DNA of 37,960 nt, taken from Dehalococcoidia bacterium. GTDB taxonomy: Bacteria; Chloroflexota; Dehalococcoidia; GIF9; AB-539-J10. The position numbers were made by a program, and so were the translations under genes. Positions 1,908 through 33,138 of this stretch are shown here, in pieces (positions within the stretch are counted from its first letter, which is position 1; every line of letters starts with the position of its first letter). The notes beneath the pieces were generated by a model. The model was not told the origin of the DNA and searched no databases. It was given only the letters and a program-made list of their open reading frames with translations. The stretch covers positions 1-37,960 of the forward strand of contig JAUWQI010000002.1 of NCBI GenBank assembly GCA_030611085.1. The letters are read 5' to 3'.

Positions 1908-4532
1908 CTATCCACATTTGGTGAAGCCACAATTGAGACAGATATTGCAGCCCTCCTGGTAAATCAAAGGACCACCGCACTCGGGACATTGCCCTGCCTG
2001 GTTGCTTCGCAGCTCCTTCACTGTGCTCAAGGCTTCAGCTTGCAATGACACTCCTTCACTTTTAGGATTTGGAATTTCGGATTTAGGATCTGCTCCAATA
2101 TATTTCTCAAGCACACTAGCAATAGCATCGGCACAGGACATAACGGCATGCCCTTGCTCCCAGGCAATGGAAGGACACCGAATGCCACGCAACTGCCTTA
2201 TAATGGAATCTAGGTCTATACCAGACCTTATAGCCAAAGATACAAGTCGGCTAATAGCCTCGAGCTGCGCTGCAGCGCAGCCGCCGGCTTTACCCAATGT
2301 GGAAAAAACCTCGCATATCCCCTGGTCATCAAAATTTACCGTTACATAGATGTAGCCGCATCCAGTGCTTACCCTCTCAGTTACGCCTGTGGTAAGTTTA
2401 GGTCTTTTTCTTGGAGCCAGTTTACCTTCAGCCTTCTTCCCTCCACCTACAGTGAGAACCTGACTTTCTCGGCTCCTATCCCGGTAAATAGTTATTCCTT
2501 TTAAGCCCTCCTCATAAGCCAGCATATATACCTTACTTACATCTTCTGGTGTTGCTTCGTAGGGGAAATTGACTGTCTTACTAACAGCACTATCAGTAAA
2601 CCTCTGAAAAGCAGCCTGTATCCTAACATGCCACTCTGGAGTTATGTCGTGGGCAGTAGCAAAGAGTTCTTTTATCTCCTCGGGAATATTTTCCATATCC
2701 TGAAGTTTTCCCCCTCCAGCTAATTCTCTCATTAGCTCAGGAGAATAGAAACCTCCCCTTTTGGCTGCCTCCTCAAAATAAGGATTTACCTCTACGAATT
2801 CCTCACCCTCGAGTATATGGCGCACATAGCTTAAGGCAAATACTGGTTCGATACCACTGGAACAATTGGCAATTATACTTAAGCTACCTGTGGGAGCAAT
2901 AGTAGTTCGAGAGGCATTTCGAAACCGAGGACCGTCAGGCACATCATAAATGCTCCCCTCGAAGGCAGGGAAAACGCCTCTCTCCTTGGCTAACTCTACT
3001 GAAGCTTTATCCGCCTCCTCAGATATGAACCTCATAACTCCTTCAGCAATACCAATTGCCTCTTCGCTATCGTAAGGAATGCCAAGCTGGATAAGCATAT
3101 CGGCAAAACCCATCACTCCCAACCCTATCTTCCTGGTGGCTTTCGTTCTTTCAGCTATTTCAGGCAAGGGATACCGATTAACATCAATAACATCATCGAG
3201 GAAGCGAACTGCTAGCTTGACTGTTTGAGCTAGCTTAGCATAGTCAATCTGAGCTTGCTTCGCTTCCCCTTCGCTACACTCAGGGCTTCGGCTCACTGCA
3301 ACGACGCTATGAGGGCAAATCATCATCTTAGCTAGATTTATAGAACCTAAGTTACAAGATTCGAAAGGAAGCAGAGGTTGTTCACCACAAGGATTGGTGC
3401 TTTCTATTCTGCCCAATTTGGGAGTAGGATTGTGTCGATTTATTTCATCCATAAAGACAATGCCCGGGTCACCGGTGTGCCAAGCCATATCAACTATTTT
3501 GTCAAATACCCCCTTGGCATTAAGCTTACTCTCCACCTCTCCAGTTCGCGGGTTCACCAGCTTATAATCTCCACCCTTCTCCACCGCTTTCATAAAGTCA
3601 TCGGTCACAGCTACTGAGAGATTAAAATTGGTTAAAGCCTCCGAGTCTCCTTTAGCTTCAATGAATTTTAAGATGTCAGGGTGGTCAATGGCTAGTATCG
3701 CCATATTAGCTCCACGGCGCATGCCACCTTGCTTTATAACATCAGTAGTGATATCAAAGGTTCGCATAAAGGAGACAGGGCCGCTAGCGACGCCGCCTGT
3801 AGAGCCAACCCTGTCCCTCTCCGGCCTGAGTCGGGAAAAAGAAAAACCAGTGCCTCCGCCACTCTTGTGAATTAAGGCAGTATATTTGACAGCATCAAAA
3901 ATGGATTCCATGGAGTCATCAATAGGGATAACAAAGCAAGCCGACAATTGCCCCAACTCGCGACCGGCATTCATCAATGTAGGGGAATTGGGTAGAAATT
4001 CCAAATTTGCCATTAGCTGATAAAATGCCTCCTCTACCGAGAGCCCGGAGTCGTTAGTCGCTAGTCCCGATTGCTGACTGCTGACTGCTGACTGCTGACT
4101 ATAGAGAGACTCGGCGGAGACAATATGCCTGGCTACACGGCGAAATAGCTCCTGTGGCGTTTCAACAACCTTTCCTTCCCCATCCTTCCCCAAATATCTC
4201 CTTTCCAGAACCCTTGAAGAGTTATCGCTAAGTTTGATTCCAGAAATAACTTGGCTACTAGCTTGGGGAGAAAATTCATCTGCAGTTAAAACTTCTTTAA
4301 CCATTGCTTGAAGTTGGGAAAGAGATATAGGCAGCCTAGGTTGTGGCGAAATAAATTCCTCCATACCGGGCAAGGGTTGAACCAGCTCCAAACGTTGGCT
4401 TACTTGCTCAGTGAATTTTTCCAACAATTTTCTGTCGCTTATACCCATGGATTCGGCAGCGGCGAAAACGGCTTGAGCTACTCCATCTCGACCAATAGAT
4501 TTTTGACTGGCTTTTTTACGAGTCTTGGGCAT
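1908..4532 (-). CDS. nrdJ: Adenosylcobalamin-dependent (class II) ribonucleoside-diphosphate reductase
   Basis: Reduces ribonucleotides to deoxyribonucleotides for DNA synthesis using a B12 radical, independent of oxygen. The body has NPCGEQPLLPFESCNLGSIN, the active-site loop with cysteines, LSACFVIPIDDSM carrying a redox cysteine, and APTGS-type loops. A TSCPD-like domain follows (GVTERVSTGCGYIYVTVNF onward). The C-terminus is a zinc-ribbon-like tail with CPECGG and CLNCGFTKCG. At 874 aa it is of ordinary length for the family, but three segments (about 144-165, 410-426 and 813-841) are translated interspersed repeats absent from the normal fold. It lies 2 bp past the nrdR stop, so it is probably cotranscribed with and controlled by nrdR. 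The identification is firm. Confidence 0.96.
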   Translation of the reverse strand: MPKTRKKASQKSIGRDGVAQAVFAAAESMGISDRKLLEKFTEQVSQRLELVQPLPGMEEFISPQPRLPISLSQLQAMVKEVLTADEFSPQASSQVISGIKLSDNSSRVLERRYLGKDGEGKVVETPQELFRRVARHIVSAESLYSQQSAVSSQQSGLATNDSGLSVEEAFYQLMANLEFLPNSPTLMNAGRELGQLSACFVIPIDDSMESIFDAVKYTALIHKSGGGTGFSFSRLRPERDRVGSTGGVASGPVSFMRTFDITTDVIKQGGMRRGANMAILAIDHPDILKFIEAKGDSEALTNFNLSVAVTDDFMKAVEKGGDYKLVNPRTGEVESKLNAKGVFDKIVDMAWHTGDPGIVFMDEINRHNPTPKLGRIESTNPCGEQPLLPFESCNLGSINLAKMMICPHSVVAVSRSPECSEGEAKQAQIDYAKLAQTVKLAVRFLDDVIDVNRYPLPEIAERTKATRKIGLGVMGFADMLIQLGIPYDSEEAIGIAEGVMRFISEEADKASVELAKERGVFPAFEGSIYDVPDGPRFRNASRTTIAPTGSLSIIANCSSGIEPVFALSYVRHILEGEEFVEVNPYFEEAAKRGGFYSPELMRELAGGGKLQDMENIPEEIKELFATAHDITPEWHVRIQAAFQRFTDSAVSKTVNFPYEATPEDVSKVYMLAYEEGLKGITIYRDRSRESQVLTVGGGKKAEGKLAPRKRPKLTTGVTERVSTGCGYIYVTVNFDDQGICEVFSTLGKAGGCAAAQLEAISRLVSLAIRSGIDLDSIIRQLRGIRCPSIAWEQGHAVMSCADAIASVLEKYIGADPKSEIPNPKSEGVSLQAEALSTVKELRSNQAGQCPECGGPLIYQEGCNICLNCGFTKCG
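2010..2092. repeat. Two interspersed repeats inside nrdJ
   Basis: One part (2010-2046) belongs to the family with CTTCACTGTGCTCAAGGCTTC and GCAATGACA. The other (about 2055-2092) belongs to the family TTAGGATTTGGAATTTCGGA, also seen at 15335-15372 and 31425-31450. Together they encode a non-conserved linker (PKSEIPNPKSEG and neighbours) before the C-terminal zinc-ribbon tail, and they preserve the frame. Confidence 0.75.
3256..3306. repeat. Interspersed repeat inside nrdJ
   Basis: The sequence resembles copies at 389-427, 2010-2046 and 7370-7396 (CTTCGCT, then CTCAGGG or CTCGCAATGAC). It encodes SVVAVSRSPECSEGEAKQAQ, breaking a normally continuous RNR segment between NLAKMM and the following helix, without changing the frame. 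Confidence 0.75.
4030..4100. repeat. GACTGCT-type tandem repeat inside nrdJ
   Basis: GACTGCT is repeated about four times next to a TCGTTAGTCGCTAGTC segment. In nrdJ it encodes a low-complexity stretch, YSQQSAVSSQQSGLATND. A related element (GCTGATGGCTGACGGCTGAC) sits inside the kinase gene at 18968-19002. The reading frame is kept in both. Confidence 0.75.
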
Positions 4533-26735: not shown

Positions 26736-28010
26736 TTACCTCCTTTGGAAAATGTTAACTACGACGGTAGAACCATGCGCCCCAACATTATGCATTAGTC
26801 CCAAGTCAATATCCTTTTTCTTAACCTGTCTTGGCCCAGCCTCCTCCCTCATTTGCTTAAATATCTCTACTATCATTCCTACGCCAGATGCTCCTATAGG
26901 GTGCCCCTTGGATTTCAATCCACCATCCATATTGATAGGCAATTTCCCATCTAGCCTATTTTCCCCTTCTCTAATTGCCTTGACTGCCTCACCCGGTTTG
27001 TAGAGCCCAAGGTCCTCCATAGCCAGTATCTCAGCTATGGTGAAGCAATCATGGACCTCGGCTAGCTTTATATCTTGAGGACTAATACCCGCCATTTCAT
27101 AAGCCTGTTTCGCTGCCAATTTGGCGGCCTTTATCGATGTCATATCTTCTCTTTCAGCTAGGAAGTAATCGCTTGCCTGCCCCGTGCCAATAACATATAT
27201 AGGTTTGTCGGTGAAATTTTTGGCGATATCCTCAGCAACCAGAAGAACCGCAGATGCTCCATCACAAATGGTAGAGCAGTCAAATAACCTCATAGGCCAA
27301 CCTATAATAGGATTCTGTGCCGGGTCGTGCAAGAAATCCATTTCATCCGCCCAGTGGGGCTCAGGAAGCCCCTTCTTGGCTGCTGAGGCAGCTCGCCTCT
27401 TCATAAACTCTGGAATGGAAACATCAAAGTGTGCTTTCGGATTGAGCCCGCCATTATGATGATTCTTTATCCCAAGCCTCATGAAATCTTCCTCAGTGGT
27501 GCCATACTTTGCCATATGAGCTGTAGCTATAGTGGCGTAAATTCCAGGAAATGTTTCGCCACTAGGAATTTCGGTATCCGGGTCCAGTGCAGAAGCAAGA
27601 ACTTCGGTCACATGAGCAGTATCCAAGTTGGTCATTTTCTCTATGCCGCCGACCAAAACAATATCGTAGATGCCAGAAGCAATTGCTATAACTCCTTCTC
27701 TAAAAGCAACTCCACTGGCAGCACAAGCATCTTCGAATCTAACAGTTGGGATAGGAACAAGCCCGATGCGGCCAGCAGCAGTCGGTGCAACATGAACCTG
27801 CCGTTCAAAAAGGTCGCTGCTGATATCTCCTAGATAGAAAGCATCGATATCTTTGGGGGCAAATCCCTTGTCTACCGAGCCTCTCAATTCATTATATGCC
27901 TCCACAAATAAATCGTGACCTCTTACTCCTTTGGGATAAGCTCCGAATTTCGATAATCCAGCCCCTACTACAGCTACACCTCGCCCTAATTTCCGTTTCT
28001 TTTGAACCAT
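26736..28010 (-). CDS. SCP-x-type thiolase-like acyltransferase, second copy
   Basis: A 424-aa paralogue of the 24875-26137 product. Nucleophile loop FEDACAASGVAFREG (Cys96), LAEVHDCFTIAEI and the His loop KSKGHPIGASGVGM are conserved. Both proteins begin with KLGRGVAVVGAG and end with a glycine-rich GxxGxTV segment. Two thiolase/DUF35 pairs side by side suggest two substrates or hetero-complexes in acyl-CoA or isoprenoid-like condensation. Confidence 0.9.
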   Translation of the reverse strand: MVQKKRKLGRGVAVVGAGLSKFGAYPKGVRGHDLFVEAYNELRGSVDKGFAPKDIDAFYLGDISSDLFERQVHVAPTAAGRIGLVPIPTVRFEDACAASGVAFREGVIAIASGIYDIVLVGGIEKMTNLDTAHVTEVLASALDPDTEIPSGETFPGIYATIATAHMAKYGTTEEDFMRLGIKNHHNGGLNPKAHFDVSIPEFMKRRAASAAKKGLPEPHWADEMDFLHDPAQNPIIGWPMRLFDCSTICDGASAVLLVAEDIAKNFTDKPIYVIGTGQASDYFLAEREDMTSIKAAKLAAKQAYEMAGISPQDIKLAEVHDCFTIAEILAMEDLGLYKPGEAVKAIREGENRLDGKLPINMDGGLKSKGHPIGASGVGMIVEIFKQMREEAGPRQVKKKDIDLGLMHNVGAHGSTVVVNIFQRR

Positions 28011-28083
28011 AATTTAACCTCCTAAATTGCTGTTTTACATTTGAGTGCTTCCGCAGAATACCAAAACTCTGTTATTGTATCAC

Positions 28084-28602
28084 TCAGGCTAATTTCGGGC
28101 AACATTTATTACAGAAATTCACCTCCTTCCAATCAGTGTCTGCTAAGCTATTAGAGAAGTGCATGATGCATTTGGCATTAGAGCAATGTCCCAATCCAAA
28201 AGTATGTCCCAGTTCGTGAACTATTTCTTTGGTGGCTCTTTCCAGAAATAAGTTTTTGTTTGGTGGTAAGCCATAATATTCCTGTCTTAATCGGCATAAG
28301 GATACGATTGCTATCCCAGAGGCGATGTCAGCTTCGCCGAAAACAAAGTTAAGTCCTGAGGCATAAAGGTCAACATCGGCTATGCCTACAACCTTCTCAT
28401 CCTTTTCCCTTTCTAATGCTTTTAACGAAGCTATCAATTTTGAGGAGAGATATTGTTTCCTTTCGGAATTATAGGCATAAGCCAGGTCATTAAAGCCCAC
28501 TCCTATTTCCACAGGGCAATGGAAAACGCCATTAACCCTGTCCCTAAGCTCGCCCATTATCTCGTCGGCTATATCACCCACCGGTTTAAGTGTGATTTTC
28601 AT
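28084..28602 (-). CDS. Archaemetzincin-family zinc metalloprotease
   Basis: The catalytic zinc motif HELGHTFGLGHC (residues 129-140) is the archaemetzincin form of HExxHxxGxxH with the extra Cys. Further cysteines (CSNAKC at 140-145, CNKCC at 164-168) form the structural zinc site and IMHFSNS is the Met-turn. The 172-aa length and start MKITLKPVG are standard. Members are common in archaea and sporadic in anaerobic bacteria; the natural substrate is unknown. It stands alone, divergent from the aldolase-type gene. Confidence 0.93.
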   Translation of the reverse strand: MKITLKPVGDIADEIMGELRDRVNGVFHCPVEIGVGFNDLAYAYNSERKQYLSSKLIASLKALEREKDEKVVGIADVDLYASGLNFVFGEADIASGIAIVSLCRLRQEYYGLPPNKNLFLERATKEIVHELGHTFGLGHCSNAKCIMHFSNSLADTDWKEVNFCNKCCPKLA

Positions 28603-28692
28603 TTATTCCTTGTTTAAAGTTTCCTGGGGCAAGATCAATTGTTGAAATTTTATCAGAAATCGGTTTTTTCACCCATTCTAAGTGCCCTTTGT

Positions 28693-28698
28693 TATAAT
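28693..28698 (+). promoter_or_regulatory. -10 element for the aldolase-type gene
   Basis: A perfect TATAAT lies 58 bp upstream of the ATG at 28757. No good -35 is seen at 16-18 bp, so the promoter is only partly supported. Confidence 0.35.
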
Positions 28699-28756
28699 AC
28701 TTTAGAAGGCTCTAAAGCCGGTTATCCTCACCAATACAGGTTTGTGATGTAAGTCA

Positions 28757-29374
28757 ATGAATTTCACAGAGGACTCAGCAATAATGCCGACCTATCAGGG
28801 TGTAAAATTTAAAATAGAAACCCTGAGCGGAGAAATTCCCAAAGACCAGAGAATGGAAGAATTGAAATACTGGTGTAAAGAATTTCATGAGCATAATCTT
28901 GCTCCACCCTATGAGGGCGGTTCTTGCGGGAATTTAAGTTTTAGATTACGAGGTGGTGAAAGTCAGTTTATAATCACAGGCTCGAGAATCGGTTTAAAAA
29001 ATAAGTTAAGGGATAATTGTTTCGTAACAGTTTCCTCAATTGACTTAGAAAAGAGGATAGTTTATGTGCATGGAATAAGGGAGCCTTCTTCTGAAAGCAT
29101 GCTGCATCTTGAGATTTACCGCCGAAGAGAAGATGTCAATGCGATATTTCACGGTCATTCCCAGGAGATTTTATTGAGTTCAGATAAATTGAACTTGCCA
29201 CAAACAGCGAAAGAAGAGCTTTACGGAACACCAGAGTTAGCTCAGAGGGTTTTAGAAGTATTAGAGGATGAATATTTTCTGATAATGCGGAATCACGGGT
29301 TTATTTCTCTTGGTAAAACAATGGGGGAAGCTGGTGAGCTTGCTTTACAAGTCCTGGAGAGATGTCGTTCATAA
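28757..29374 (+). CDS. Class II aldolase/adducin family protein
   Basis: Zinc-dependent fold of L-fuculose-phosphate aldolase and related dehydratases. The substrate loop GGSCGNLSFRL and zinc-ligand motif FHGHSQE are present, with a further His in MRNHGFISLG. The 205-aa length fits. Residue differences from known aldolases make the reaction uncertain; methylthioribulose-phosphate dehydratase (same fold, methylthioadenosine salvage) is worth considering because mtnP is nearby. Start could be 28757 or ATG 28784, the latter with GAGGA about 10 nt upstream. Confidence 0.8.
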   Translation: MNFTEDSAIMPTYQGVKFKIETLSGEIPKDQRMEELKYWCKEFHEHNLAPPYEGGSCGNLSFRLRGGESQFIITGSRIGLKNKLRDNCFVTVSSIDLEKRIVYVHGIREPSSESMLHLEIYRRREDVNAIFHGHSQEILLSSDKLNLPQTAKEELYGTPELAQRVLEVLEDEYFLIMRNHGFISLGKTMGEAGELALQVLERCRS

Positions 29375-29387
29375 CTACGCGGTGATT

Positions 29388-29912
29388 TCAATCTATCCCC
29401 TCCTCTAGCCAGTTTAAGATTTCTCCCAAAACCACATCGTGGTTGGCTCTGGTTACCACAAGCGTCTTAACTTCGGGATGGCGCTTAATTTCATCGGCGA
29501 AAGGGTGAGGCTTAAGCATAACGGTGCCCAGGATTTTCTCCCTACTATCTATCGCTTGTGATATAGCCTCTCTAAACTGCGGTGAGAAAAGCTCCATCTT
29601 ACCAAGCTCATCAATGACGATTAAATCGCTTTCCTTTAATGCTTGGCGCAAGGCAGAAACGCCAACTCTATTCAGGCTATCAATATCAACTTTATATTTG
29701 CTTACCTGATAGGGACTGAGGATATTAACATGAGCCAGTATGGCATCTTTGCCATCGAGGGTAACAATTCTGAACCCCTGCCTTACTCCGCCGCTTCGTA
29801 TTTCCTCGGTATAAAAGCCGCTAGCTTTAACCTTTGCCTTGGTTATGGCTTCCTTGATGAGGGCAGTTTTGCCCGTGCCTGGCTTGCCAGTTAAAAGGAG
29901 AACCCTTTTCAC
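29388..29912 (-). CDS. THEP1-family nucleoside-triphosphatase
   Basis: P-loop NTPase: Walker A GKPGTGKTALI (9-19), Walker B with downstream helix LIVIDELGKMEL (about 96-107). The 174-aa length matches the archaeal and bacterial THEP1 group that hydrolyses several NTPs in vitro; the cell role is unknown. It begins with GTG at 29912, whose G is also the last base of the preceding TAG stop, so translation is coupled to the 31-aa gene upstream. Confidence 0.9.
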   Translation of the reverse strand: MKRVLLLTGKPGTGKTALIKEAITKAKVKASGFYTEEIRSGGVRQGFRIVTLDGKDAILAHVNILSPYQVSKYKVDIDSLNRVGVSALRQALKESDLIVIDELGKMELFSPQFREAISQAIDSREKILGTVMLKPHPFADEIKRHPEVKTLVVTRANHDVVLGEILNWLEEGID

Positions 29913-30007
29913 TATTCCTGTATTGAAGCCTGAGCTTTCCTCTTCCCCTTAAGCTTCTTCTGACGCCAGCGATGTTTCAAGATAGCCATTCTCTTCGCTT
30001 TATTCAT
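29912..30007 (-). CDS. 31-aa basic small protein
   Basis: Starts at ATG 30007 and ends at TAG 29912. The peptide begins [20 protein letters not shown] and ends ASIQE, with 11 Lys/Arg in 31 residues, a likely RNA or nucleic-acid binder. Both ends are shared: its ATG overlaps the stop of the DUF6485 gene (ATGA), and its stop overlaps the GTG of the NTPase gene (TAGTG). Such double coupling strongly suggests a real gene that annotation tools would miss. I recognise no family. Confidence 0.65.
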
Positions 30008-30204
30008 GCCTTTTTGCTATAGATGGAAATGAATTTTTCTAGTGAGCGGTCATAAGTCTTCTCTACTTCGGGAGGAAATAAACAACCGGGAAGCTCACCA
30101 CGCTCCCAGTGGTAGCGGATGCATTCACAGCATTTCCCTTTTCTGGAACAGGGCTCATAAGTGCAAGGACACCTGGCTTTGTTAACTTCAATCTGACATT
30201 CCAT
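30004..30204 (-). CDS. Cysteine-rich DUF6485-like small protein
   Basis: The 66-aa product has eight cysteines in a compact pattern, [20 protein letters not shown], then [13 protein letters not shown]. This matches the small proteins annotated DUF6485, probably metal-binding. It starts a coupled operon with the 31-aa protein and the NTPase, 14 bp after the methionine synthase stop. The function is unknown. Confidence 0.8.
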
Positions 30205-30218
30205 TTCCTGCGCCCTTA

Positions 30219-31247
30219 TTATACGGTATATTTCCTTCTTAGACTATCTGACAATTTAGCCGTTAATTCCAGAACCTGACTTGCTGCTTCCAGTGATAGA
30301 TTTGCTAGCCCGCATGAAGGGGTTATTAACCCTTGCCGTATAATCTGCTTAAACTTGATACCATTTCTAGTGAAGGGAGCCATAGCCTCTCCCAGGCGGT
30401 CATAAAGGCTGGACAAAGATTCTTTGGCTAATGCCTCCTCACTATTGGGAACGATTCCCCAGGCAATAGTGCCTCCTCGGGCAAGAAAAGATTTTACTTC
30501 GTTGGGATAAATGCTGAATGAGGAAGCATAGTTATAAGCATCAAAGCTAAGTATATCAATTGTGGTGTTTAGAAGAACCGGCCAATCGGTATTGCCACAG
30601 CAGTGAACCCCCTTTACCCCTTTAATCCCCTTAAACACTTCTTCCAATAAGGTGGTTACCCTTTCATTAGGAATAGCAACAAAAGCTGAGCCCAGGGAAG
30701 TCAAATACGGCTCATCTACGAAGGTGATGGTATTGGATGATATTTCCCTTAGAGCGTTTTCTTGCCACGAGGCTTTTAATCGCAAGAACTTTGCCATGAC
30801 TTCAGCCAAAGTCTCATCATAAAGGAGGGCTCGACCATCCTGGTCAGTAACTGTGAGTCCCCAGGTGATAGGACCTATTATTTGCCCTTTAACTATTTCG
30901 GGTTTCTTTGCCTTAGCCACAAAGGCGTGAAGTCCCGCAGCATATTCAGCAGAAACGCCGTATTTGCTGAAGTCGTTGGCTTCACAATCCATATAGATTT
31001 GCCCTAGCGCAGTCTCAAAATTTGCCGATGGCTCAACATGGATTTTGTCTCCACCTGTAACTATCCCAGGAAAGCCCTCACTGAATTGGATATACATGCT
31101 TTCTTTAGAGGAGCGGTTTGGTAGTTGAGGCCAGGCGGGAATGTCGGGAAGACATTTCAAAATTAAGGAGCAAGCCGCTTCTGGGTCAAAGTGAGACATG
31201 CTGCCAATAGCCGTAGGCAAACAACCAAATTCAAACTTAGCAGGCAT
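30219..31247 (-). CDS. Core MetE-type methionine synthase
   Basis: Only the C-terminal catalytic barrel of MetE is present (about 342 aa; full MetE is about 750). Zinc ligands are visible in [10 protein letters not shown] (His and Cys) and in TPSCGLANL (Cys), with FVDEPYL on the barrel. Core MetE proteins, studied in Dehalococcoides, take a methyl group from a methylated corrinoid protein rather than from folate. This setting, with metK, ahcY and mtnP, fits a methionine/SAM cycle. ATG 31247 is preferred over GTG 31262 because AAAGGTC precedes it. Confidence 0.82.
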
Positions 31248-31261
31248 CTTGACCTTTATCA

Positions 31262-31443
31262 CGGAGAAATCCTAAATTCGAATTTCTAAGTTCTAAACAA
31301 ATCTTCTTGAAATGCAAAAGGCAAAAATAAAAATGTAAAATGACGGAGTAAAAGTTAAAAGGTTTTGCATTTTGAGTTGTCATTTTGACTTTTGAACTTT
31401 GATTTTTAATTTCCTATATTGTTTAGTATTTCGGATTTCGTGC
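31262..31443. repeat. Repeat-rich gap between mtnP and the methionine synthase gene
   Basis: The AAATCCTAAATTCGAATTTC TAAG family occurs at both ends (31270-31300 and 31425-31450). The middle is AT-rich with mirrored pieces such as AAGTTAAAAG, TTTTGACTTTTGAACTTTG and GCAAAAGGCAAAAATAAAAA. There is no gene. Confidence 0.65.
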
Positions 31444-32334
31444 TTAGGATTTGTCTATATGTGGTACTTGTTTCATTAGGTATTTTCCAATGAGTAAGTC
31501 TAAATTCTCTTTTATCTTTTCTGGAATATACTTCGGCGAGGTAACAATAGCATCCTTGAGCGCAGTAGCACAGATACAATCTCGCTTCTCTGGAATGCGA
31601 GGCATCATTAGTTTTAAAATTTTCCTAACAATCTCAACACACTTCTGCAGGTTGGAGAAAATCATCTCCGTAGTCACCGACGCATAGCCAGGATACCAAC
31701 AATCAAGGTCGGTAACCATGGCAAGTACGGCATAGCATATTTCGGCTTCCCTTGCCAGTTTAGCTTCAGGCAGAGCAGTCATGCTAATAATATGAGCACC
31801 CCAGGAATGGTAGAGTTGTGACTCCGCTTTGGTAGAGAATTGCGGTCCTTCCATAGCCAGATGGGTGCCGCCTTTGTGTATATTTGCCCCTGCCTCAGTG
31901 GCTGCCTCGAACAAAATTTGACTCAAAACAGGACAGAAAGGCTCAGCAAAGGCAATGTGCGCCACTATTCCATTGGTAAAGAAGGTATTATCTCTACCCA
32001 TGGTGCGGTCAATAAGCTGGTCAGGAATGACTAAATCCAGGGGTTTTATCTCCTCTTTAAGGCTGCCCACCGCGCTCACGGAGATAATCCTTTCCACCCC
32101 AAGGGATTTCAAAGCATAGATATTAGCTTTAACTGGAAGCGCAGTGGGGCTTATTTGATGTCCTTTGCCATGTCTGGGAAGAAAGGCAACCTTTACCCCT
32201 TCAAGATTGCCCAGGATGATAACATCGCTGGGCTCACCGAAAGGCGTGGTTATCTTTACCTCCTCTACTTCAGTCATGCCTTCCATGTTATAAAGCCCGC
32301 TTCCACCAATGATGCCTACTTTCGCTTCGGGCAT
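31444..32334 (-). CDS. mtnP: S-methyl-5'-thioadenosine phosphorylase
   Basis: Phosphorolyses methylthioadenosine, a by-product of SAM use, to adenine and methylthioribose-1-phosphate. It shows GIIGGSGLYNMEG at the N-terminus, FLPRHGKGHQISP (phosphate and substrate loop), GPQFSTKAES and SMTALPEAKLAREAEI, the type II nucleoside phosphorylase pattern specific for MTA. The 296-aa length is close to the family's 270-290. AAGGAGA lies 8 nt upstream of the ATG. Confidence 0.94.
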   Translation of the reverse strand: MPEAKVGIIGGSGLYNMEGMTEVEEVKITTPFGEPSDVIILGNLEGVKVAFLPRHGKGHQISPTALPVKANIYALKSLGVERIISVSAVGSLKEEIKPLDLVIPDQLIDRTMGRDNTFFTNGIVAHIAFAEPFCPVLSQILFEAATEAGANIHKGGTHLAMEGPQFSTKAESQLYHSWGAHIISMTALPEAKLAREAEICYAVLAMVTDLDCWYPGYASVTTEMIFSNLQKCVEIVRKILKLMMPRIPEKRDCICATALKDAIVTSPKYIPEKIKENLDLLIGKYLMKQVPHIDKS

Positions 32335-32359
32335 TAGAGTTTCTCCTTATTTATCAACT

Positions 32360-32584
32360 TTAAAGCTCTAGAAACTTTTCTGTACTTAATTCAGCTTGAC
32401 GCAAGATAGCTCGCAGCGTTCCTTCGGGTAAATCTCTGGGGTGATGAGGCACTGTAGTACGGGCGCGAGTTTTAGGATTCCACCAAATTTCATGGCTCCC
32501 TTTTGCCTGGCGATCAAAGATAAAGCCTGCTTGCCTCAACTTACGAATGACTTCGTCCGCACTGAAGCTAGCCAGTCTTCCCAT
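32360..32584 (-). CDS. hicA: HicA-family mRNA interferase toxin
   Basis: A 74-aa double-stranded-RNA-binding-like toxin with the catalytic His in KGSHEIW (His31), basic segment TRARTTVPHHP and the typical EVIRKLRQAGF opening. It starts one base inside the preceding antitoxin gene. Its toxicity would be held by the HicB protein encoded just upstream. This unit is the outermost toxin-antitoxin pair of the cluster and has no gene-end stub at its far side. Confidence 0.9.
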   Translation of the reverse strand: MGRLASFSADEVIRKLRQAGFIFDRQAKGSHEIWWNPKTRARTTVPHHPRDLPEGTLRAILRQAELSTEKFLEL

Positions 32585-32829
32585 CAGGATATGCTCACTG
32601 GAATGCGAACTTGGATACTTGTTGGAGCAGCCGCTTGTAGTTTAGGCGGAAGCTCGTCACCATGCTCCAAATAAGACTCAACAAGCTTACGAGCCACATC
32701 CTGTGCAATCTCCAGGGTTTCTGCGGCAGTCCGCCCCTGAGCCACCAAGCCTGGAAGCTCTTCACTGGTAGCCAAGAATCCGCCTTCCGGTAAGGGCTCC
32801 AAGTGAACCTCCAGAAATACTTCCTTCAT
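32584..32829 (-). CDS. hicB: HicB-family antitoxin
   Basis: 81 aa: RNase H-like fold with EPLPEGGFLATSEELPGLVA and AQGRTAAETLEIAQD, the usual HicB partial-fold motifs. No separate DNA-binding domain is obvious in the short C-terminus, and the start has GAGGAGTA upstream. The toxin gene overlaps its end by one base. Confidence 0.9.
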   Translation of the reverse strand: MKEVFLEVHLEPLPEGGFLATSEELPGLVAQGRTAAETLEIAQDVARKLVESYLEHGDELPPKLQAAAPTSIQVRIPVSIS

Positions 32830-32842
32830 ACATTACTCCTCG

Positions 32843-32917
32843 CTAGGTGCCACCACTTGAGCAGTATATCACATATGCAGTGAATGGTGATATGAACACA
32901 TCTGCGAGGAATTTCAT
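32843..32917 (-). pseudogene. Truncated DUF5615 toxin
   Basis: Immediately after DUF433, coupled by ATGA, an ATG opens MKFLADVFISP followed by 13 unrelated residues and a stop. MKFLADxxIS is the usual opening of DUF5615 PIN-like toxins, the normal partner of DUF433. Only about 11 codons survive before the HicBA unit. The toxin has evidently been cut off. Confidence 0.65.
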
Positions 32918-33138
32918 GCGCGAATCTCTAGCGTTTCTTCTTCAGCAAGATAACTCGCATACCGAAGAGCCTCATCAATGTCCTCCGGTTCCAGGTAAGG
33001 ATATGCCTTCAGAATGGACTCTTTAGTTTCTCCAGCAGCTAACAGCCCGAGCACCCTTGATACAGGAAATCGTAGGTCGCGAATACAAGGTTTCCCAGTG
33101 CAAATTTTTGGATTTACAGTAATACGCTCAAATCTCAC
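32914..33138 (-). CDS. DUF433 antitoxin, orphan
   Basis: 74 aa with the DUF433 pattern: ITVNPKICTGKPCIRDLRFP, VSRVLGLLAAGETKESIL, and EPEDIDEALRYASYLAEEE. These are VapB-like antitoxins with a small winged DNA-binding fold. The expected DUF5615 toxin is reduced to a stub downstream, so this antitoxin stands alone. It could persist by neutralising related toxins. Confidence 0.88.
   Translation of the reverse strand: MRFERITVNPKICTGKPCIRDLRFPVSRVLGLLAAGETKESILKAYPYLEPEDIDEALRYASYLAEEETLEIRA

Follow-up and report, generated by a model that had tools for sequence, protein, structure and literature searches.

The 31-aa open reading frame on the minus strand at 29912..30007 of the window, i.e. of the whole 37,960-nt stretch of DNA that was analysed, is almost certainly a real gene, under selection and part of a family of small basic proteins. 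As judged by profile matches, this family is spread through the phylum Chloroflexota, is nearly always single-copy where present, and is matched by sequence to no known family in the libraries searched (Pfam, NCBIfam and PDB). Our best guess, by analogy, is that its members are accessory RNA-binding proteins, probably ribosome-associated, which would work like bS22/mS38. Tiny basic proteins easily escape gene callers, and some were recognised as ribosome components only through cryo-EM maps. A phylum-wide family without an entry in the libraries searched thus predicts something definite that can be checked in Chloroflexota ribosomes, those of a large and mostly uncultured group.

The Small Gene and its Junctions

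The frame, in which 12 of the 31 residues are K or R, starts with ATG at 30007-30005 and ends with TAG at 29914-29912. Its flanking genes had been named DUF6485 and THEP1 by the first-pass annotation, and profile matches bear out both names. Upstream lies a Cys-rich DUF6485 protein of 66 aa (30004..30204, minus strand; PF20095, E 1.1e-8, over the cut-off), and downstream a THEP1-type NTPase (29388..29912, minus strand; PF03266, E 5.8e-49; NF010248 over the cut-off). The stop/start overlaps reported at both ends can be read directly in the window. The TGA of DUF6485 and the ATG of the small ORF share ATGA (30004-30007 region, minus strand), and in TAGTG the last letter of the small ORF's stop codon is the first of the GTG start of THEP1, the sole start candidate listed ahead of the P-loop. 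No Rfam element reached the gathering threshold between 27000 and 33500, and near the small gene neither promoter-like sites (7 versus 7.9 in shuffles) nor terminator-like sites (1 versus 4.8 in shuffles) were in excess.

Selection and Conservation

The length of an ORF proves nothing by itself, since the mechanical ORF list has 71 entries of 25 aa or more that overlap positions 27500-33000. Comparison of synonymous and non-synonymous change, which the first-pass annotation had suggested as a check, reveals purifying selection: pN/pS is 0.218 (bootstrap 0.185-0.253; 56 pairs without shared sequences; uncorrected for saturation) for loci gathered by protein similarity, a choice that biases toward synonymous change. 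Changes by codon position are likewise skewed (45:41:120; 32 pairs with 85% identity or more). At a pN/pS of 0.22 over the 56 pairs, the proposal that the frame is protein-coding despite lying under the usual gene-calling size holds well. A further set was made of the 30 best-scoring THEP1 loci, picked on THEP1 alone, 14 of which also carry a MetE-like or DUF6485 gene. The small gene is found just upstream of THEP1 (within about 300 nt) in 12 of these 14 cluster-embedded loci, including that of the window; L155 and L167 are the two without it, and L152 and L154 were judged from L011 and L008. The loci picked by THEP1 agree with those picked by similarity. Start codons, as picked by script among 97 loci of the class, are ATG in 85, GTG in 11 and TTG in one.

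Spread and Anatomy of the Family

A single-sequence search at E<=1 matched 38 of 61 genomes (the window's own and related ones) and left 23 without a match. Of 393 class genomes, a profile search at E<=0.1 matched 117, four of them with two matches each; of 301 genomes in a phylum sample, a broader profile matched 106 at E<=0.01, each genome once. None of 27 genomes of other groups (three titled only "bacterium") matched at E<=0.1; this outgroup set holds no known matching genome, and the phylum sample of 301 genomes is its positive counterpart. For the small protein of the window, Pfam and NCBIfam each returned no family up to E 10, and 29 scanned members gave scattered matches, none of them convincing (best E 0.041 in NCBIfam and 0.023 in Pfam). 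Against the PDB, no single member had a phmmer match up to E 10, and the best match of profile A2, at E 3.7, was not significant. Nor was the family found among the matches listed in the literature on DUF6485, bS22/mS38, Chloroflexi small proteins and ribosomes, and non-annotated ribosomal proteins.

Conservation is concentrated in a helix formed by the first 25 residues, MNKxKR[VM]AxxKHRxxxKKxEEKRKA. Among 144 distinct cores (ungapped first 25 residues), K11 is conserved in 98%, A8 in 97%, H12 in 94%, K5 and K18 in 86% each and R13 in 84%; M1, N2 and K3 are near-invariant, partly by construction, the first residue having been set to M and the cores from outside the class picked by the pattern NK.[KRS]. 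K3, A8, K11, H12 and the basic positions are conserved across the family. AlphaFold2, run on 29 sequences, predicts a single helix at residues 3-30 with a mean pLDDT of 90.9. In the class, 70 of 97 members measure 22-41 aa and the other 27 measure 73-229 aa (one long member, L140, is cut by the contig end); the long members in the alignment have K/A/P-rich tails. Outside the class, 54 of 56 members are 24-49 aa long, about 42-44 of the 56 being no longer than about 40 aa, and the other two reach 107 and 210 aa. In L002, L008, L020, L132, L145 and others, the same 25-residue core is followed by a long, repetitive and variable tail, H1-like and rich in K, A and P.

Genomic Context in Dehalococcoidia

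Nearest-neighbour and flank counts place the small gene regularly in a methionine/SAM-cycle cluster, where it lies mostly just before THEP1 and otherwise before an APH-like gene. In the window, the order on the minus strand is MTAP, MetE-like, DUF6485, the 31-aa ORF and THEP1, and beyond THEP1 come a gene on the plus strand whose product has a class II aldolase domain and then an archaemetzincin. Across the 97 class loci, some of which duplicate each other exactly or almost so (L083/L084, L027/L028), the first reference gene downstream is THEP1 in 55, an APH-like kinase in 30 and others in 4, with none in 8; upstream it is MetE-like in 38, DUF6485 in 28, OB-fold/thiolase in 18 and others in 7, with none in 6, where absence may reflect the short flanks of 1.5-3 kb. 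THEP1 shares the strand of the small gene in all 55 loci, and its alignment starts at or inside the stop of the small ORF in 20 of the 97; in two loci, L065 and L081, THEP1 lies upstream of the small gene. When only small-gene matches of E <= ~6e-4 and the stronger THEP1 matches are counted, THEP1 is within 3 kb of 52 of 94 small genes, on the same strand in 52 of 52 and less than 1 kb downstream in 49; the DUF6485 matches in this comparison came from a smaller sample of 294 genomes. At least one of MTAP, MtnA, MetE-like, SahH and MetK is in the fetched flank of 81 of the 97 class loci, and at least one of those five genes, THEP1, DUF6485 or the APH-like gene is near the small gene in 93. All neighbours found in the class are on the strand of the small gene, except for a single OB-fold match. 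Of the 97 loci, 25 have an archaemetzincin close to the small gene.

The first-pass annotation had read the overlaps as a sign of three proteins acting together. The part of this claim that concerns THEP1 finds backing in the close link within the class (55/97), but DUF6485 is the nearest upstream gene in only 28 of 97 loci, its overlap with the small ORF is seen in 6, and the double overlap occurs in only three, namely the window, L007 and L010. We read the overlap with THEP1 as a sign of co-expression in an operon rather than of a fixed complex, and the case shows how little start and stop codons that overlap at a single locus say about whether a protein complex is conserved.

Loci Outside the Class and Clusters Without the Small Gene

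None of 56 loci from outside the class carries any of 14 reference neighbours in its fetched flank, as searched by tblastn with queries from the class at 1e-4, a search that could miss diverged genes. As neither THEP1 nor DUF6485 nor SAM-cycle genes were found beside these loci, the function of the small gene need not depend on them. Its neighbours there vary between families. Pfam matches place it near genes for translation, namely TilS (L258), CysS (L245) and genes of the radical-SAM tRNA methylthiotransferase type (L235, L263), near a PucR-type gene (L235 again) and, in the class locus L108, beside release factor 1; the seven neighbours compared with Pfam in this way were picked by eye, so no statistics can be drawn from them.

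Conversely, clusters without the small gene exist in the class. In L305-L307 (G153, G072 and G107), MetE-like is followed by DUF6485 and then directly by the APH-like gene, and in L155, L167 and L302, DUF6485 is followed by THEP1 with no small gene between them. All nine MetE-like loci that were read in genomes without a small-gene match, which hold MTAP and MetE-like clusters, are free of a small-family frame. A MetE-like match is also missing in 9 of 18 genomes without the small gene, 7 of these 9 being at least 93% complete; two of the 18 (G020 and G029) had weak small-gene matches, at E 0.17 and 0.70. In G234, G254, G279, G121 and others, THEP1 is located elsewhere in the genome, away from the small gene. 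The small gene is missing from some complete clusters and gives no match in 23 of 61 genomes, and is thus dispensable. The first-pass annotation had held that relatives with a disrupted frame or an altered spacer would speak against its proposal. In part of the tree the frame is indeed absent and the spacer is not preserved, which counts against the trio and not against the gene. A fixed DUF6485-small-THEP1 arrangement does not stand, given that the APH-like gene replaces THEP1 downstream in 30 of 97 loci and that the trio occurs in none of the 56 loci outside the class. An obligate unit of the three was rejected on these neighbourhood counts and on the DUF6485-THEP1 pairs that lack the small gene.

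Comparison with bS22/mS38 and Other Ribosomal Proteins

According to published descriptions, bS22/mS38 is a basic helix of the small ribosomal subunit (PMC10085706, PMC10618245; for mS38, PMC6582356), bS22 being a 33-aa helical protein between h27, h44 and h45 of the 16S rRNA (PMC10085706). The same sources describe bS22 and bL38, unannotated in the Borrelia genome, as revealed by cryo-EM density (PMC10618245), and bL37 and bL38 as lineage-specific small ribosomal proteins, the latter absent from the annotation (PMC10618245, PMC10085706). Hence bL37 and bL38 offer a precedent for small, lineage-restricted ribosomal proteins. With bS22 (NF047430), COX24_C (PF08213) and mS38, the small family shares a core of about 30 aa that is strongly basic, helical and easily left unannotated. 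The best ungapped fit aligns KR[VM]AxxKHRxxxKK of the small family with KKMAKHKHRKLLKK of bS22 in one register, [KR]-[KR]-[MV]-[AS]-x-x-K-H-[RK]-x-x-x-[KR]-[KR]. The two differ in that the core of the small family starts at the initiator Met (MNK), whereas bS22 has MGSV, and in that the small family is without the TRWQR-type end of bS22.

Column permutations reached this fit in 9/4000 and 23/4000 cases with ten Chloroflexota bS22 sequences, in 14/4000 and 80/4000 with mycobacterial bS22, and in 16/5000 and 65/5000 with a smaller set. For single bS22 sequences, 1-18 of 500 shuffles scored as high for five and 54-184 of 500 for six; the bS22 of the window's own genome is among these 6 of 11 that do not stand out from shuffles (more than 10% as high). 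In HMMER searches without composition correction, five bS22 sequences rank 3-7 once recognised members have been filtered out, behind two family members that escaped the filter, and with the bS22 model the small proteins take ranks 1-7. With the null2 correction, the best bS22 falls to rank 43 of 24649, and with the bS22 model under composition correction the small proteins are at ranks 4 and 5 (E 4.4 and 5.0). Aligning the small family to bS22 with hhalign gives a Prob of 4% and a P of 0.0096. The likeness in sequence motif is therefore only suggestive as a hint of common ancestry.

The small protein is not itself bS22. Neither NF047430 (34-bit cut-off) nor PF08213 (23-bit cut-off) matches the small protein of the window up to E 10, and a single one of 29 scanned members matched NF047430, at E 2.2. 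A scan of the whole genome with both models at E 10 found one place, which is not the small-gene locus; the true bS22 is encoded at G000:C7:22051-22140 (L179; 60.4 bits). Over the class, bS22 exceeds the NF047430 cut-off in 118 of 393 genomes. With the small gene counted at E < ~6e-4 and bS22 over its cut-off, 46 genomes have both, 47 the small gene only, 72 bS22 only and 228 neither, and mutual exclusion is thus not seen in the 393 genomes. The identity with bS22 was rejected because the genome has its own bS22 elsewhere, the models miss the small protein and both genes co-occur. The ten bS22 genes fetched from the class include seven with a TTG start, as picked by script.

Searched against the PDB, a phylum-wide profile (A4) gave as its best match chain 9fi8_HN, "mS161", over 26 residues at E 0.47, which is not significant. 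The likeness lies in the N-terminal MNKKNRLALRKRRRR of mS161, which from its name we take to be a mitoribosomal protein, and is a lead only at this E value.

Proposed Function and Rival Explanations

One basic helix, a copy number that is nearly always one and survival through changes of neighbourhood are most simply explained by an accessory nucleic-acid-binding protein. We consider the chances of an RNA- or ribosome-associated function, proposed by analogy, to be about even. The function would be seated in the strongly basic N-terminal helix of 25 residues, which would most likely run along structured RNA, at best guess rRNA, while the optional Lys/Ala/Pro-rich tails could add contacts. The protein is presumably expressed and would bind RNA and the ribosome, as an accessory and dispensable component acting like bS22/mS38. 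The stop-start overlaps would couple translation of the small gene to that of THEP1 and, in the window, also to that of DUF6485. In its boldest form, which we regard as possible yet somewhat doubtful, the proposal would make the product an overlooked ribosomal protein of Chloroflexota, i.e. a second bS22/mS38-like helix present with or without the true bS22, with lineage-specific H1-like tails and with a synthesis tied to the SAM cycle in Dehalococcoidia. What speaks against a ribosomal reading is the gene's location: a ribosomal protein would not usually be encoded so constantly among SAM-cycle genes.

DNA is another possible ligand of a basic helix, and the 27 of 97 class members of 73-229 aa, with K/A/P-rich tails in those aligned, recall a nucleoid or DNA-binding peptide of the H1 type whose tails would be chromatin-like extensions. 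This is unlikely, since 70 of 97 members in the class do not exceed 41 aa and those outside it are also mostly short, the constant spacing of the K-H-R core shows more specificity than H1-like repeats do, and Pfam and NCBIfam hold no match in support. The genomic context might instead suggest a small protein that regulates MTAP, MtnA, MetE-like, SahH and MetK or helps to assemble them: at least one of these is in the flank of 81 of 97 class loci, every match to them is on the strand of the small gene, and half of the 18 genomes without the small gene are also without a MetE-like match (7 of those 9 at least 93% complete). Such a role is nonetheless quite unlikely, because none of the five is nearby in 16 of 97 loci in the class and in 56 of 56 outside it, MTAP and MetE-like clusters do without the small gene in nine of nine loci read, and the sequence, with 12 of 31 residues K or R, is nucleic-acid-like.

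Closer to the original idea, the small protein might serve THEP1, or THEP1 together with DUF6485, as a dedicated partner whose basic helix binds and regulates the NTPase, the three forming a functional unit. In 55 of 97 loci THEP1 is the first reference gene downstream and shares the strand, in 20 its alignment begins at or in the small ORF's stop, and 12 of 14 cluster-embedded THEP1 genes are directly preceded by the small gene, all of which would fit. We nevertheless hold this to be decidedly unlikely, given the APH-like kinase that sits downstream instead in 30 of 97 loci, the absence of THEP1 and DUF6485 from the 56 flanks outside the class, the genomes with THEP1 elsewhere (G234, G254, G279, G121 and others) and the DUF6485-THEP1 neighbours without the small gene. 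Finally, overlaps at both ends might be expected if the ORF were a chance frame or a leader peptide, inert in itself and translated only to regulate THEP1; the lack of an Rfam element and of an excess of promoters or terminators is compatible with this. It is the residues that are conserved, however, and not merely the frame, and members reach 229 aa, some of them far from THEP1; this explanation is highly improbable and was rejected on residue conservation.

Other Genes of the Window and of Related Loci

The MetE-like protein of the window (347 aa; 30219..31262, minus strand) matches the methionine synthase model NF002119 weakly (E 2.3e-5, 23.7 bits against a cut-off of 258). Searches of Pfam (to E 10) and of the PDB (to E 1) found nothing for it, and in the class its gene often neighbours MTAP. 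S-methyl-5'-thioadenosine phosphorylase (MTAP) is encoded in the same cluster at 31444..32334 on the minus strand (TIGR01694 over the cut-off; PF01048). DUF6485 recurs in the methionine/SAM-cycle cluster, also between MetE-like and the APH-like gene where the small gene is missing (L305-L307). The archaemetzincin-type metalloprotease (28084..28602, minus strand; PF07998, E 5.2e-32; NF033823 over the cut-off) is a bacterial archaemetzincin, whose gene comes after THEP1 in many relatives. A gene of the HicA toxin family (PF07927, E 3.2e-21) and an adjacent 81-aa ORF, at 32360-32584 and 32584-32829, are followed by a DUF433 protein just past the HicA-type gene (32914-33138; PF04255, E 2.3e-24). 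The 81-aa ORF has no Pfam match at E 0.001 and resembles a HicB partner by eye. In L108, a 304-aa ORF at 2159-3073, just before the small gene, joins part of a PrmC/PrmA-like methyltransferase to a ChsH2-type zinc ribbon and an OB-fold, and is either a fusion or an assembly error.
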